A stretch of 34,399 nt of DNA, from the NCBI GenBank assembly GCA_903877065.1, contig CAIRCR010000366.1, forward strand, positions 1 through 34,399, given 5' to 3'. Source of the DNA: an uncultured Pseudomonadota bacterium. Its GTDB lineage: Bacteria > Pseudomonadota > Gammaproteobacteria > Methylococcales > Methylomonadaceae. Of this stretch, positions 2,664 through 14,022 are shown in pieces (within the stretch, counting starts at the first letter, position 1; each line of letters opens with the position of its first letter). The position numbers and the translations under genes were made by a program. The notes under the pieces were generated by a model that searched no databases, was not told the origin of the DNA, and worked only from the letters and a program-made list of their open reading frames with translations.

Positions 2664-4046
2664 ATGCAATCCATTTCAACATTTGTTTTAAAACCCCTTG
2701 CTTTAGCCCTCACACTTGCCTCAATTTCAACGTCAGCATTCGCTGTTAAAAACATCGAAAAACCCGATTTAAAATTTGGTTTTATCAAACTGACCGACAT
2801 GGCACCGCTTGCGATTGCCGCTGAAAAAGGTTTTTTTGAAGAAGAAGGACTTTTTGTCAAACTCGAAGCACAAGCCAATTGGAAAGTTGTTTTAGACCGC
2901 GTGATTAGCGGTGAACTCGATGGTTCTCATATGCTTGCACCCGTTCCGCTCGGTTCAACGATTGGTTTTGGTACAAAAGCAGACGTGATTACTGCATTCA
3001 GTTTAGGTTTAAACGGCAGTGCAATTACGGTTTCCAACGACGTTTGGGCAAAAATGAAACCCAATGTTCCTGCAAAAGACGGCAAACCGATTCATCCGAT
3101 TAAAGCCGATGCCTTAAAACCAGTCGTTGACGATTTCAAAAAAGCTGGCAAATCCTTCAACATGGGCATGACATTTCCCGTTTCTAGCCACAACATGAAA
3201 TTGCGTTATTGGCTCGCGGCAGGCGGTATCAATCCAGGTTATTACTCGCCACCGCAAGACATTGGCGGTCAAATTGATGCTGATGTTTTGTTGTCAGTCA
3301 CACCACCACCACAAATGCCGTCAACACTTGAAGCAGGGACGATTTCAGGTTATTGCGTCGGTGAGCCTTGGAATCAACAAGCGGTTGCAAAAGGTGTTGG
3401 CGTGCCAGTGATTACCGATGATGAGTTGTGGACAGATGTGCCTGAAAAAGTATTCGGTGTGTCTAAAGAATGGGCGGATAAATATCCCAATACCCATATC
3501 GCAGTGGTTAAAGCATTGATACGCTCGTCCATGTGGCTGGATGCCGAAAACAATAAAAATCGTGTTGAAGCGGTCAAAATTATTTCCGATGCAAAATACG
3601 TTGGCGCGGACAGCAGTGTAATTGCGAACAGCATGACTGGCACGTTTGAATATGAAAAAGGCGATAAACGCAGCCTTCCCAACTTCAACCTATTTTTTCG
3701 CGGCAACGCCAGCTATCCGTATTACAGCGGCGCAGTTTGGTATTTAACGCAAATGCGTCGTTGGGGGCAAATCAATGAACCCAAACCCGATAGCTGGTAT
3801 TTAGAAACCGCAAAAAAAGCCTTCCGACCTGATATTTATCAAGCGGCGGCAAAAGAATTGATTGCTGAAGGTAAAGCAAAAGCCACTGATTTTCCCGCTG
3901 AAAATGATTCGGGCTTTAAAGGGGCGCAAGCTGATTTTATTGACGGTGTGAGTTTTGATGCCAATAAACCAAACGATTATTTAACGCATTTCGCCATTGG
4001 TTTGAAAGGCAAACAAAAAGTCGTGGGCGGCAAAATCGTTGAGTAA
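2664..4046 (+). CDS. nrtA: Nitrate ABC transporter substrate-binding protein
   Basis: A 460-residue periplasmic binding protein of the NrtA/CmpA family. A Sec signal peptide (about 27 residues, ending STSAFA) is followed by the typical opening of this family ([22 protein letters not shown]). Further hallmarks are [37 protein letters not shown] and the late MRRWGQI. It should capture nitrate (possibly nitrite or, less likely, bicarbonate as in CmpA) and deliver it to NrtB. The ATG at 2664 has a good Shine-Dalgarno (ACGGAG, 2650-2655). It is the first gene of the nrtA-nrtB-nrtCD-porin operon, behind a sigma54 promoter and an NtrC-like site, so expression probably rises when ammonium is scarce. 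Length agrees with the family. Confidence 0.92.
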
Positions 4047-4064
4047 TTCGCGCCAAGAATCAAA

Positions 4065-4094
4065 ATGTGAACGTAAACATTTTTGCGTTCACAT
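4065..4094 (+). other. Intercistronic hairpin between nrtA and nrtB
   Basis: ATGTGAACG (4065-4073) pairs perfectly with CGTTCACAT (4086-4094) around a 12-nt T-rich loop. It sits between the binding-protein gene and the permease gene with no T-run after it. Such structures often protect the upstream message and give more binding protein than permease; that role is inferred here. Confidence 0.6.
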
Positions 4095-4118
4095 CGTATT
4101 TAAAAAATAGGTTTCAAG

Positions 4119-5135
4119 ATGAACAAACTAATTAAATTTTTAAACATTACAGGGCTGACGTGGTTTATCCCACTCGTAAAAATTTGTGCAGGTGAAAATC
4201 CCAAACAGCAACTACACCAATTATGGTTGATTATGGGCGTACCAATTATCGCGTTTATGATTTTTTTAAGTTTGTGGAGTGCTGGCGCGTCACAAGTTCA
4301 CACCAGTTTGGGGGCGATTCCAAATCCGACAGCGGTGTGGGAAGAAGTCGGTGGTTTAGTCGATAATTATCACGAAGAACGTCAAAAAGAAGTGGAATTT
4401 TACGAACGCCAAAAAGTACGTTACGAAAAACTCAAAGCCGAAGACTCAAATACACCACCTCTGAAATTGCGTAAATACACAGGAAAACCAACGTATTTAG
4501 ATCAAATTTTCACCAGTTTATATACCGTTTTCGCAGGATTTTTTATTGCGACGATTCTCGCTGTTCCGCTTGGCATTATTTGCGGCATGAGTCCTGTTGT
4601 GAATACCGCCATAAATCCTCTGATTCAAATTTTTAAACCCGTTTCACCGTTGGCGTGGTTGCCTATCGTGACGTTATTAGTGAGCGCAATGTATGAAACA
4701 ACCGATGATTCGTGGTTTGATAAATCCTTTTTAACGTCAGCAATTACCGTCACGCTTTGTTCGTTGTGGCCAACGTTAATCAATACAGCGGTTGGCGTAT
4801 CGTCAATAGATCAAGATTTAGTCAACGTTGGTAAAGTGCTGCGTTTGAGTTACATGACACAAATCAAAAAAATCATTTTGCCTTCTGCACTGCCGTACAT
4901 TTTTACGGGAATGCGTTTGTCGCTTGGCGTGGGTTGGATGGTTTTAATTGCGGCTGAAATGCTCGCACAAAATCCAGGTTTAGGTAAATTTGTTTGGGAC
5001 GAATTTCAAAATGGCAGTTCACATTCTTTGGGTAAAATCATGGTTGCCGTGTTCACGATTGGGATTATCGGTTTCATTTTGGATCGCATCATGCAATCGT
5101 TCCAAAAAGTGTTTTCATTCGGTCGCAACGTCTAG
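4119..5135 (+). CDS. nrtB: Nitrate ABC transporter permease
   Basis: A 338-residue inner-membrane permease of the NrtB/SsuC type. A first membrane segment (about 33-55) is followed by a charged, helix-prone stretch of roughly 50 residues (about 80-130, rich in Glu, Lys, Arg and Tyr). Then come about five more segments starting near 132. The EAA loop that contacts the ATPase is visible as GKVLRLSYMTQIKKIILPSA followed by LPYIFTGMRLS. The protein is longer than usual for this family (about 270-290) because of the charged insertion, which topology would place in the periplasm. A weak AGG lies before the ATG at 4119. It ends 9 bases before nrtCD, so the two are co-translated. Confidence 0.9.
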   Translation: MNKLIKFLNITGLTWFIPLVKICAGENPKQQLHQLWLIMGVPIIAFMIFLSLWSAGASQVHTSLGAIPNPTAVWEEVGGLVDNYHEERQKEVEFYERQKVRYEKLKAEDSNTPPLKLRKYTGKPTYLDQIFTSLYTVFAGFFIATILAVPLGIICGMSPVVNTAINPLIQIFKPVSPLAWLPIVTLLVSAMYETTDDSWFDKSFLTSAITVTLCSLWPTLINTAVGVSSIDQDLVNVGKVLRLSYMTQIKKIILPSALPYIFTGMRLSLGVGWMVLIAAEMLAQNPGLGKFVWDEFQNGSSHSLGKIMVAVFTIGIIGFILDRIMQSFQKVFSFGRNV

Positions 5136-5144
5136 GAGCTAGCA

Positions 5145-6827
5145 ATGACAACGCCTTTACTTTCACTCAAAAACGTCTGTAAATCTTACGGCGAAGGCAG
5201 CAACGCCGTTTCTATTTTAAAAAATATCAATCTCGACATTGTTGAAGGCGAATTTATTGCGATTGTTGGATTTTCAGGTAGTGGTAAAACAACGCTCGTA
5301 TCGTTAATTGCTGGATTATTGCAAGCAGATAGTGGCGAAATTTTAAAATCAGGTGAACCGATTACCGAGCCTGCACCAGATAGAGGTGTCGTATTTCAAA
5401 ATTATTCGCTGATGCCGTGGCTTACCGTTTACGAAAATGTGGCGTTAGCGGTTGATGAAATTTTCAAACATTGGACAGCAGATCAACGTCATTTTCACAC
5501 TGAAAAATATGTGAAGATGGTGAATTTAGGCGCGGCAATGCACAAAAAACCTGCTGAACTTTCGGGCGGTATGCGTCAACGCGTGAATGTGGCACGAGCA
5601 TTGGCGGCAAATCCTGAAATTTTGCTTTTAGATGAACCGCTCAGTGCTTTGGACGCATTAACTCGCGGGAATTTGCAAGATGAAATTTTGCAAATTTGGT
5701 CACAAGAAAAAAAGACCGTTATTTTGATTACCAACGACGTGGACGAAGCAATTTATATGGCGGACAGAGTGATTCCGCTCACGCTTGCCCCCGATGCGAC
5801 GTTTGGTGAAAGTTTTAGCGTTGATATTGCGCGTCCACGAAATCGCACCGAACTCAATCACAACGAAAATTTCAAACGCTTGCGAGGTGAAATTACTCGT
5901 TATCTTATGGCGATGGGAATTGAAAAAGCCAATGAAGCAAGCAATGACAAAATTGCCTTACCTAACGTGCGCCCAAATACCAGTGAAAATTGGCAAAATG
6001 TTTCGTTGCCAGACATTGCTTGCCAATCCAATTTAGGAAAATCACGCTATTTAGAATACACACAACTTTCAAAAATCTATCCAACACCAGACGGTAACAG
6101 CAAGGTAAAAGTGGTTGATGGCTTTGATTTGAAAATGAAAAAAGGCGAATTTATTTCAATTATTGGACATTCGGGGTGCGGCAAATCAACGGTTTTATCG
6201 ATGACTGCGGGGTTAAGCGAAATTTCTGAAGGCGGCATTATTTTAGATAACCGTGAAATTAACGGTGCAGGACCTGATCGTGGTGTGGTATTTCAAGCCC
6301 CTAGTTTATTTGGCTGGTTGAGCGCGTTTGAAAATGTGATGCTCGGTGTTTATAAAGTTTATCCACACACCAGCCAAGCAGAACGCGAAGACATTGCGAC
6401 CTATTATTTAACACGAGTTGGTTTAGGTGACGCGATTCATAAAAAAGCGGGTGAGATGTCAAACGGTATGCGCCAACGAGTTGGCATAGCGCGTGCGTTT
6501 GCTTTATCACCCAAGTTACTACTCCTTGATGAACCATTTGGAATGCTCGATTCATTGACACGATGGGAATTACAAGAGGTTTTAATGGAAGTGTGGGATC
6601 GCACACACGTTACCGCGATTGTCGTTACGCATGACGTAGACGAAGCGATTTTATTGGCAGACCGCGTAGTAATGATGACGAATGGTCCAAATGCACGCGT
6701 TGGCAAAATTGAAATCATTGATTTACCCCGTCCACGCACACGTCAAGGTTTGCTTGATCATCCCGATTACTACAAATATCGAGAGAGCTTGCTTACTTTT
6801 TTATCTGAATGCGATCACACGCATTAA
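5145..6827 (+). CDS. Fused double ATPase of the nitrate ABC transporter (NrtC-NrtD type)
   Basis: A 560-residue protein with two complete ABC ATPase domains in tandem, driving nitrate import with NrtB. Domain 1 (about 5-225) has Walker A GFSGSGKTT (42-50), Q-loop FQNYSLMPW, signature LSGGM (139-143) and Walker B LLLDEP. Its switch His is replaced by Asn (ITND, N197). Domain 2 (about 303-530) has Walker A GHSGCGKST, signature MSNGM (438-442), Walker B LLLLDEP and a normal switch His (VTHD, H496). A linker of about 75 residues joins them. Cyanobacterial transporters use separate NrtC and NrtD, with a binding-protein-like tail on NrtC; that tail is absent here. The two departures fall in the same composite ATP site, suggesting one degenerate and one active site. 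GGAG precedes the ATG. Confidence 0.9.
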   Translation: MTTPLLSLKNVCKSYGEGSNAVSILKNINLDIVEGEFIAIVGFSGSGKTTLVSLIAGLLQADSGEILKSGEPITEPAPDRGVVFQNYSLMPWLTVYENVALAVDEIFKHWTADQRHFHTEKYVKMVNLGAAMHKKPAELSGGMRQRVNVARALAANPEILLLDEPLSALDALTRGNLQDEILQIWSQEKKTVILITNDVDEAIYMADRVIPLTLAPDATFGESFSVDIARPRNRTELNHNENFKRLRGEITRYLMAMGIEKANEASNDKIALPNVRPNTSENWQNVSLPDIACQSNLGKSRYLEYTQLSKIYPTPDGNSKVKVVDGFDLKMKKGEFISIIGHSGCGKSTVLSMTAGLSEISEGGIILDNREINGAGPDRGVVFQAPSLFGWLSAFENVMLGVYKVYPHTSQAEREDIATYYLTRVGLGDAIHKKAGEMSNGMRQRVGIARAFALSPKLLLLDEPFGMLDSLTRWELQEVLMEVWDRTHVTAIVVTHDVDEAILLADRVVMMTNGPNARVGKIEIIDLPRPRTRQGLLDHPDYYKYRESLLTFLSECDHTH

Positions 6828-10098: not shown

Positions 10099-12321
10099 AT
10101 GATGCGCTGCATTATAAGCAGTTGTCATGAGTATGATAAGATTGAAAAATCACCCTCAACAATTCAAAGCGATTTGAATAAACATTCGGAAAAAACTGTG
10201 ACACAAGGAAGCAAGCAAAATAGGGTGTTGGCTTATTTATCACGAATCAAAATTTTTTTGCCAAATATACTTATGAAATTAAATTCAGATATGACCGTTC
10301 AAAACACAGAAAACGAAAAGAATGCGGCTGATTTTTCAAAATTTATCATGGGACTGCACAATCTCAGCGTAGGCGTTATTTGTGCAGATTGTGATCGAAA
10401 AATTACTTACATCAATAAAGCGGCACTGCTTTTATTGAGTAAGGCTGAACTCGATATTCAAATAGATTTACCCAATTTTAGCGCGGAAAATTTAATTGGA
10501 AAAAGTATCGATTTATTTCATAAAAACCCACAACATCAAGCTAATTTGCTCCGTGAACTCAACGGAATGATCGAATCTATCTCGTTAATTGGCGGACATC
10601 AACTGCTCATTAGAGCAAGCCCAATTATTAACGAATTAGGGCAAAGAATAGGTTCACTTGCCGAAGTCACTGACATTTTTGAAATAAACAAGAAGGCAAC
10701 TGAACTGGTTATTGCCACCAATAAAGGGTTGGAAGAAAGCGCAAATTCAGAAACGCTTACAAATCATCTGCTAACACTTGAAAATGCAGAAAAAAAAGCG
10801 TGGCTGTCTGAATTTGTACTTATGAATAGTGAACGGATATTTCAAAGCACTGAAAAAGAAGCACGAATAACGGCACTTATTGATGCGAATAAAGAGTTAG
10901 AGCTTCAAAATTTTCAACTAGAAAAGGAGCTTCGTAAATCGATTGCTTTAGGCGAGAAGTTAACGGTCATTTATGAGGAATTTGCTACGGTAAATGAGGA
11001 GTTAATTGTTCAAAATGCTGAAAAAGCGGCGCGGGCGGCTGAACTCATTACTGCAAATAAAGAGTTAGCATTTCAAAATTCTGAAAAAGAAAAACGAGCG
11101 GCTGAATTTGTTATTGTGAATAACGAGTTGGAATTGCAAAATTTTGAAAAAGAAGAACGAGCCAATGAACTTATGCTTGTGAATGAAGAGTTGATGTTGC
11201 AATACGCAGAAAAAGACAAGCGTTCCGAAGAACTTATACGATCAAACAATGAACTTGCTCGAGCAAACGAAGAAATTGCCGTGAATCTTCACGCTCTTTT
11301 CTCTCTAAATGAAATACAAACCAAGCAAGCCGAAGAACTTACGCTTAAAAATCAAGAATTGATTAGACAAGCCAAGAAGTTGTCTGTGCTGAATGAAGAT
11401 TTAGCGATTGCTAACGAAGAGTTGATGCTTCAAACCGTTGAAACAGAAAAACGCGCTACGGAATTAACACGCTCTTATGATGAAAATGCGGTTTTGATTG
11501 ACCAAATGAATCATATGCAAAAATTAGAAAGTATTGGGCGATTAACATCAGGGATTGCTCACGATTTTAATAACATTTTGGCGTGTATGTTGGGCTACAA
11601 CGAAATGAATAAAGATGTGAGTGATGATTTGACAGGTAAAGGTGTAGACGGATTAAAAACTGAACTTGAAAACAACACGAAACAAATTGATGAAGCGGGC
11701 AAACGTGCGATGTCACTCATTTCAAAAATGATGGCGTATTGTCGTCAAGAGAACAGCGCGAAAAAAATAGACATCAAACCCACACAAGAAGTCATCAACG
11801 AAGTTTTGGCGATGTTGCGTCCTTCGCTTACGAGTCGAATCAAACTTGAATTTACAAATCCGTGTCAGATCAATCACAACGATTGTGAAACGTGCGTTGT
11901 ACGCGATATATGCGAGGATAACATTCAAATTGATGCGATTGATTTGCACCAAATTCTTACAAATTTAGCGGTGAATGCGCGAGATGCCATGAAAGAACGC
12001 GGTGGAATTATTTCTATTTCGTTAGACAAATTGCATTTTGAAAATCATATTTGCCGTGCTTGTTCGGACATTATGGGCGGTGATTTTATTGTGTTGAGCG
12101 TATCCGATAACGGCACGGGCATTGAGGAAGGTGTGATTAAACGGATGTTTGATCCGTTTTTCACAACCAAAGAACAAGGTGAAGGCACGGGTTTGGGATT
12201 ATCGACAGTGAGTGGAATGGTGCATAGTTCGGGTGGTCACATTTTAGTTGATTCGACATTAGGTCAAGGCACTGCGTTTAAATTGTTGTTTCCAATTAGA
12301 CCCAAAGTTTTAATTGATTGA
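10099..12321 (+). CDS. Cytoplasmic PAS histidine kinase with a long coiled coil and cysteine-rich ATPase domain
   Basis: A protein of up to 740 residues with no membrane segment. A PAS domain (about 80-195, with the [14 protein letters not shown] loop) is followed by a coiled coil (about 200-470) containing four clean 21-residue repeats. The dimerisation domain has phospho-acceptor H488 ([10 protein letters not shown]) and the ATPase domain has N-box [16 protein letters not shown] and GEGTGLGLS. No receiver domain is attached, so the output passes to a separate regulator, not adjacent. Unusual are C596-x2-C599-x5-C605 and C652-x2-C655 within the ATPase domain, a possible metal or redox site. 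No Shine-Dalgarno supports the first ATG; internal ATGs at 10273 or 10291, just before the PAS domain, are equally plausible starts. It diverges from purT and converges on cysW. Confidence 0.88.
11014..11265 (+). repeat. Four 63-bp units encoding 21-residue coiled-coil repeats
   Basis: Residues 306-389 of the kinase fall into four consecutive 21-residue units (three heptads each). They follow the pattern N-x-EK-x-x-R-x-x-E-L-I/M-x-x-N-x-E-L-x-x-Q. DNA copies have diverged, so this is protein-level repetition. Fainter related units extend on both sides (about 250-305 and 405-455). Confidence 0.8.
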
Positions 12322-12336
12322 ATTTAGTGACTGAAT

Positions 12337-13185
12337 TTACGAATTATTTTTTTGTTTCCATTCCAAAAACGTTTTTAAAATCAATGTAATAACCGCAAGT
12401 CCAGCCAAAATCGACGCACCCGCAAACGCTGAAACGCTGTCGTATTCGTTGTAACTGACTTCGACGTGAAGCGGCAATGTATTTGTCATGCCGCGAATGT
12501 GTCCCGAAACCACAGACACCGCGCCAAATTCACCCATTGCGCGTGCATTTCACAGCAAAACACCGTAAAGCAACGCCCATTTGATATTTGGCAATGTAAT
12601 CAAAAAAAACGTTTTCAAACCACTCGCGCCCAGTGATAAAGCGGCTTCTTCTTCTTCGCTTCCCATTTCTTGCATCAACGGAATCAGTTGCCGTGCAACA
12701 AAGGGAAAAGTAATAAACAACGTCGCTAAAACAATGCCAGGCACAGCGAAAATAATTTTAATATCGTGCTGAACAAACCAACTGCCAAACCAACCTTGTG
12801 CGCCAAACATCAACACGAAAATCAAGCCTGAAATTACGGGCGAAACCGAAAACGGTAAATCAATCAACGTAATCAACAAATCTTTGCCGCGAAATTCAAA
12901 ACGAGTAATTGCCCACGCCGCCGCGACACCAAAAACCGTATTTAATGGCACGGTAATAAACGCCGTCAATAACGTTAAACGCATTGCCGCTTGCATATCG
13001 GGTTGGCTCAACGCTGAAAAATACGCGCTGAATCCTTTTGAGAACGCTTGAATAATGACCAAAACCAACGGCACGCATAAAAACAAAACCATAAATCCCA
13101 ACGAAATGGTAATTAAAGTCCAGCGTACCCAATTTGCATCTTCGAGCGTTGATTGATGAACCCGTGTTGAAATAGCTGCACTCAT
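12337..13185 (-). pseudogene. cysW: Sulfate/thiosulfate ABC transporter permease CysW, interrupted by in-frame TGA
   Basis: The reading frame of a normal-length CysW (about 282 codons) is intact except for one TGA at 12550-12552. It splits the frame into a 211-residue part (start 13185) and a 66-codon part whose first ATG is at 12537, both in the same phase. Residues on either side (LLYGVLL before, [17 protein letters not shown] after) are the conserved CysW segment, where I recall homologues having Cys or a similar small residue at the TGA. Most likely this is a nonsense mutation or a base-call error; stop readthrough is possible. The permease fold and EAA loop ([20 protein letters not shown]) precede the stop, but the last membrane segments follow it. 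AGGAA precedes the start, 9 bases after cysT. No cysA or binding-protein gene is nearby. Confidence 0.85.
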
Positions 13186-13194
13186 AAATAATTC

Positions 13195-14022
13195 CTAAAG
13201 TTGTCCTGAACGTTTGCGAACCCAATGTTGCAACAAGTTAATCAGCAACAATAATAAAAACGAAATCACAAGCATCGTGAGCGCAATCGCCGTTGCTCCC
13301 GCCATATCGTATTGTTCTAATTTCGTGATAATCAATAAAGGCACAATTTCGGAAACATAAGGCAAATTACCTGCGATAAAAATCACTGAACCGTATTCGC
13401 CAACACCTCGCGCAAATGCCAACGCAAAACCTGTTAATAACGCGGGGAAAATGTTGGGAAAAATGATTTTGGTGAAAACTTGCCAGCGCGTTGCGCCTAA
13501 ACTTGAAGCGGCTTCTTCCATGCGTGAATCGAAGTCTTGCAACACGGGTTCAATGGTTCTCACCACAAATGGAATACTGATAAAAATTAGCGCAACCACA
13601 ATACCTGCGGGTTTGAAACCAATTTGCAAATCGAAATTTTCTTTGAGGAATTTACCCAAAAGACCGCTGGGTTGAAAAATCGTCGCTAACACAATCCCCG
13701 CAACCGCAGTTGGTAGCGCGAAAGGTAAATCAATAATGGCGTGAAAAAAACGTTTACCCGCAAACGAATAGCGTGTCAAAACCCATGCTACGATAAAACC
13801 AAAAAAACTGGCAATAATCGCCGCGCCCAAAGCCGTGCCAAAACTTACTCGAAATGCGGAAACAACCCGACGATTCGTAATGATAGTTAGATAATCATTA
13901 AAATTGAGTTCAAAACTTTTGAAAACCAACGTACTGAGCGGAATTAACACCACCAAACTTAAATAAAACACCGTGAAACTAATTGTTGGGCGAAACCCTG
14001 GCATGATGCGGCTTTGGCTCAT
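13195..14022 (-). CDS. cysT: Sulfate/thiosulfate ABC transporter permease CysT
   Basis: A 275-residue inner-membrane permease with about six hydrophobic segments and the CysT/CysU landmarks IMPGFRPTISFTVFYLS at the start, LPFALPTAVAGI, the EAA loop EEAASSLGATRWQVFTKIIF, FARGVGEYGSVIFIAGN and LPYVSEIVPLLI. It would pair with CysW to form the channel for sulfate or thiosulfate import, energised by CysA, which is not in this window. The ATG at 14022 has only a weak AAGG. It is the first gene of a two-gene unit and is divergent from gltX; the 206-base gap between them holds no element I can identify. Confidence 0.92.
   Translation of the reverse strand: MSQSRIMPGFRPTISFTVFYLSLVVLIPLSTLVFKSFELNFNDYLTIITNRRVVSAFRVSFGTALGAAIIASFFGFIVAWVLTRYSFAGKRFFHAIIDLPFALPTAVAGIVLATIFQPSGLLGKFLKENFDLQIGFKPAGIVVALIFISIPFVVRTIEPVLQDFDSRMEEAASSLGATRWQVFTKIIFPNIFPALLTGFALAFARGVGEYGSVIFIAGNLPYVSEIVPLLIITKLEQYDMAGATAIALTMLVISFLLLLLINLLQHWVRKRSGQL

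Follow-up and report, generated by a model that had tools for sequence, protein, structure and literature searches.

A lone in-frame TGA in cysW: an ordinary one-base nonsense mutation or assembly error, not a new selenoprotein

Described systems and the cysW frame

The systems closest to a permease gene with a TGA at a Cys position are the bacterial Sec/Cys selenoprotein pairs accompanied by a bacterial SECIS (bSECIS) hairpin and, for the CysW family (TIGR02140), the nonsense-mutated pseudogene. For a selenoprotein, the in-frame TGA is expected to be conserved across two or more distinct sequences (PMC1088965), and the bSECIS model describes a loop of 3-9 nt with an early G, an MFE of -7.5 kcal/mol or lower and a distance of 16-37 nt from the UGA to the apical loop (PMC13188914). 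Some ABC transporter subunits are listed as predicted selenoproteins, members of the SaoP permease family among them (PMC13188914). The genome is further expected to encode SelA, SelB and tRNA-Sec, and Sec to replace a functional redox Cys. A pseudogene is recognised by a premature stop that removes conserved parts of the domain in a gene that is intact in relatives, and by relaxed selection after the stop.

The window analysed here is the whole of one contig (C366; 34,399 nucleotides) of a draft genome (G000), and it carries on its minus strand a frame for the sulfate ABC transporter permease CysW with a single in-frame TGA (Table 1). The preliminary description held that this TGA splits an otherwise intact gene, and the frame bears this out: its 282 codons start at position 13185, are broken only at codon 212 and run open from there to the natural TAA (12339-12337). 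Translated with Cys in place of the TGA, the frame gives a 282-aa protein that reaches 411.9 bits against the TIGR02140 profile, whose cut-off is 329.1 bits, while the 211-aa truncated product, which lacks the last ~70 residues, scores 290.8 bits and falls below it. An ATG is found 12 nt 3' of the TGA. The partner gene cysT scores 367.2 bits against TIGR02139 and is 92-95% identical to its closest congeners. A CysW search of the bin, which is 90.7% complete, returned no second cysW.

Table 1. Features of the cysW locus in the window (all of contig C366, draft genome G000)
Feature	Position	Strand	Basis or remark
cysW, sulfate ABC transporter permease frame with one TGA	12340..13185	-	TIGR02140 match
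In-frame TGA, codon 212 of cysW	12550..12552	-	Cys in 12 covering congeners, Thr in E. coli
Truncated cysW product, 211 aa, expected under normal termination	12550..13185	-	ORF listing
cysT, intact gene for the partner permease, immediately 5' of cysW	13195..14022	-	TIGR02139 match
Weak hairpin after the TGA	12517..12545	-	By-product of conserved coding sequence

Two further loci of the window were noted. Convergent with cysW lies a histidine kinase gene (10099-12321), whose product has a degenerate run of repeats (NEELxxQNxEKxxRAxEL-like) before the kinase part; a 53% identical homologue adjoins cysW in a congener (G010). Positions 2664-6827 encode a nitrate/taurine-type ABC importer with two ATPase domains fused in one 560-aa protein; its permease resembles the SaoP family only below the cut-off (104 of 295 bits) and contains no in-frame TGA.

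Codon 212, signs of decay and sulfate uptake in relatives

Thirteen of 17 congeneric genomes contain a CysW match with 84-95% identity, and in 12 of these 13 a full-length homologue covers the site. All 12 encode Cys at codon 212, by TGT in ten genomes and TGC in two, and none has TGA. This agrees with the earlier statement that homologues commonly have Cys at this position, and it supports both the proposed change from TGT or TGC to TGA and the view that a nonsense mutation or sequence error is the likeliest reading. More distant relatives also carry TGT or TGC, with AGC (Ser) in G034, and E. coli CysW has Thr at the equivalent position (LLYGVVLTNARAIGEFGAV); given this tolerance of Ser and Thr, a redox Cys is probably not needed here. 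In an order-wide search of 301 genomes, TGA occurred among the matches listed in G000 and G152 only, and the latter (contig C41) was rejected as a recurrence, its TGA being the natural terminator of that cysW and its codon 212 being TGC. A degenerate motif pattern with TGA gave no match in the 84,980 genomes of the GTDB r220 collection, where the identical pattern with TGY gave at least 118. Conservation of the TGA in two distinct sequences (PMC1088965) is thus seen neither among the 12 congeners nor in the genome collection.

Of the residues that do not vary among the 12 congeners, G000 retains all 57 that follow the TGA; it departs from them at 4 of 159 before the TGA and at 2 of 223 in the neighbouring cysT. 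Numbers this low do not prove relaxed selection; they are compatible with a recent mutation or with an error. Trp190 of CysW, which is shared by all 24 relatives compared and by 59 of 66 wider loci, is replaced by Leu in G000 only (TTG for TGG; 12616-12618, minus strand); this makes two unusual changes in one gene, and W190L is as compatible with mild relaxation as with error. A dN/dS that is higher after the TGA than before it, relative to the closest relatives, was considered as a sign of decay and rejected: the invariant sites are all unchanged downstream, and most of the differences fall at C-terminal positions at which the residue of G000 also occurs in other congeners. FastTree was used for the phylogenetic tree. 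As nothing has decayed 3' of the TGA, the change is either recent or an error in the consensus.

The locus had also been described as decaying, on account of the absence of cysA and of a binding protein nearby. Besides the lack of decay after the TGA, this view is contradicted by the presence of both elsewhere in the genome: contig C250 carries an intact cysA that adjoins a LysR-type regulator, and contigs C429 and C76 hold two intact genes for sulfate-binding proteins. Three congeners (G010, G003 and G001) likewise have cysA and the LysR-type gene away from an intact cysTW, so that the absence of cysA from the window is uninformative on decay. Other congeners keep cysT-cysW-cysA-lysR together; both arrangements emerge from a comparison of window 12340-14022 with L045, L046, L047 and L048. 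SulP-family transporter genes occur in all 18 members of the genus, and one of these (G008, 93% complete) shows no cysTW and no cysA over the cut-off; the ABC sulfate importer may therefore be dispensable.

Selenocysteine machinery, the hairpin and termination at TGA

A search for SelA gave no match in G000 or in any of the 17 congeners. The best SelB match in G000 reaches 172.1 bits against a cut-off of 242.25 and is a frame of EF-Tu size, while the best tRNA-Sec match reaches 38.5 bits against a cut-off of 47; in the congeners searched, matches to these two are also sub-threshold only. In a positive control of the same order (G027), SelA (554.9 bits), SelB (455.7 bits) and tRNA-Sec (78.5 bits) were recovered from adjacent genes, so the searches are able to detect them. 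The expected trio of SelA, SelB and tRNA-Sec is thus not found in G000. The incompleteness of the bin leaves room for an intact second cysW or for sel genes; for the sel genes this argument is weak, because congeners up to 98% complete also lack SelA.

The stem reported after the TGA does form on paper, CACGCGC (12545-12539) pairing with GCGCGGTG (12524-12517) with one bulged G, but its 3' arm lies outside the interval to which it had been assigned. Its stability is at chance level and ordinary for its composition, with z = -0.98 (71 nt) and -0.40 (36 nt) against dinucleotide shuffles, and of 8,826 codons examined across the window genes, ~12-13% are followed by a hairpin that passes comparable SECIS-like criteria. 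The same apical hairpin is present in TGT-bearing relatives (L002, L009 and L010), more stably in L002, and is therefore not specific to the UGA-containing gene; it is a consequence of the coding sequence for a conserved peptide. The superficial resemblance to a bacterial SECIS element, put forward with the reserve that it may be coincidence, is not supported: the GGGUGA loop of the predicted fold fits the model, but the UGA is 14 nt from the loop and not 16-37.

TGA is a normal stop codon in G000. It terminates 7 of the 29 window genes, RF2 is encoded in the genome, and prfB keeps the CGGGGGTATCTTTGAC element (frameshift site CTTTGAC; L169, around 573-580). This is the classical autoregulatory site of prfB, at whose UGA a frameshift lets RF2 adjust its own synthesis. 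A TAA inside RF2 was considered as a sign of altered termination and rejected as the misjoined end of contig C43, with the true continuation on C403. The assembly breaks prfB at C43:17300-17378 (L169), where the sequence that follows the last correct codon is unrelated, and the true 3' part of the gene is on the overlapping contig C403:1-200 (L170).

Explanations of the TGA and comparison with known systems

The lone TGA has an ordinary origin, either a one-base nonsense mutation or an assembly error, and a true lineage-specific nonsense mutation at codon 212 is the probable explanation. In this lineage only, a Cys codon (TGT or TGC) would have changed by one base to TGA, and recently so; RF2 would then terminate translation at UGA 212, leaving a CysW without its C-terminal residues that would most likely disable the CysTWA sulfate importer, and SulP-family transporters could cover sulfate uptake. 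Less likely, though quite possible, is that the cysW of the organism is intact, with the TGA introduced as a consensus error or contributed by a minor strain variant of a mixed population. This would suit a 3.1-Mb bin of 552 contigs with 4.73% estimated contamination, in which one contig end, at prfB, is demonstrably misjoined, and would also account for the absence of decay 3' of the TGA. Against it, no further frame break is apparent in the window, and ~55 ORFs shared with G010 show no frameshift-like breaks and no clear excess of nonsense or frameshift changes; of their five apparent internal stops, three concern shadow ORFs or ORFs spanning better-matching neighbouring genes, and the other two, both short, may or may not be genuine. 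The cysW of G000 also has further lineage-specific changes, such as W190L, which are as compatible with error as with mild relaxation.

Production of some active protein despite the TGA, by programmed or leaky readthrough or as a functional split CysW, is very improbable. The unspoiled sequence 3' of the TGA and the ATG shortly after it would accommodate such a mechanism, but the former is equally expected from a recent mutation or an error, RF2 is present, nothing points to a reassignment of TGA, and the TGA is found in no relative, which argues against a selected recoding signal. Readthrough had been offered as a testable alternative; it finds no support, given the undetected Sec machinery, the lack of recurrence and the presence of the hairpin in TGT-bearing relatives. 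A hairpin-directed insertion of selenocysteine at UGA 212, which would make CysW a new selenoprotein, has a negligible probability. The alignment of the TGA with the Cys of relatives, the G in the first loop positions of the hairpin and the SaoP precedent are in its favour; the machinery searches, the non-recurrent TGA, the spacing, the chance-level hairpin shared with TGT-bearing relatives and the tolerance of Ser or Thr, by which a redox Cys is probably not at stake, lead to its rejection. Decoding of UGA 212, as Sec or through other suppression, by machinery encoded in unbinned sequence, with CysW a one-off recoded permease, is just as hard to credit.

A TGA at a Cys position followed by a hairpin is not enough to suggest a selenoprotein, and such a case can be disposed of quickly by a genome check for selA, selB and selC, by the recurrence of the TGA in relatives and by looking for the same fold in Cys-coding relatives. 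In biological terms the TGA would mean no more than a recent loss, real or apparent, of the ABC sulfate importer in one lineage. With bacterial Sec/Cys selenoprotein pairs, the cysW locus shares a TGA aligned with Cys and a nearby hairpin; it differs from them in a genome without selA and with selB and selC not over the cut-off, in a TGA that is not conserved, in a spacing and stability that are not SECIS-like, and in a Cys that is probably not functionally required (Ser in G034, Thr in E. coli). By comparison, the locus resembles a nonsense-mutated CysW pseudogene in its single-base stop within an otherwise intact frame, in the loss of conserved domain parts and in the restriction of the stop to one lineage with intact orthologues in close relatives. 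It differs from such a pseudogene in being so far free of secondary decay, none of the 57 downstream sites having changed, consistent with a recent event.
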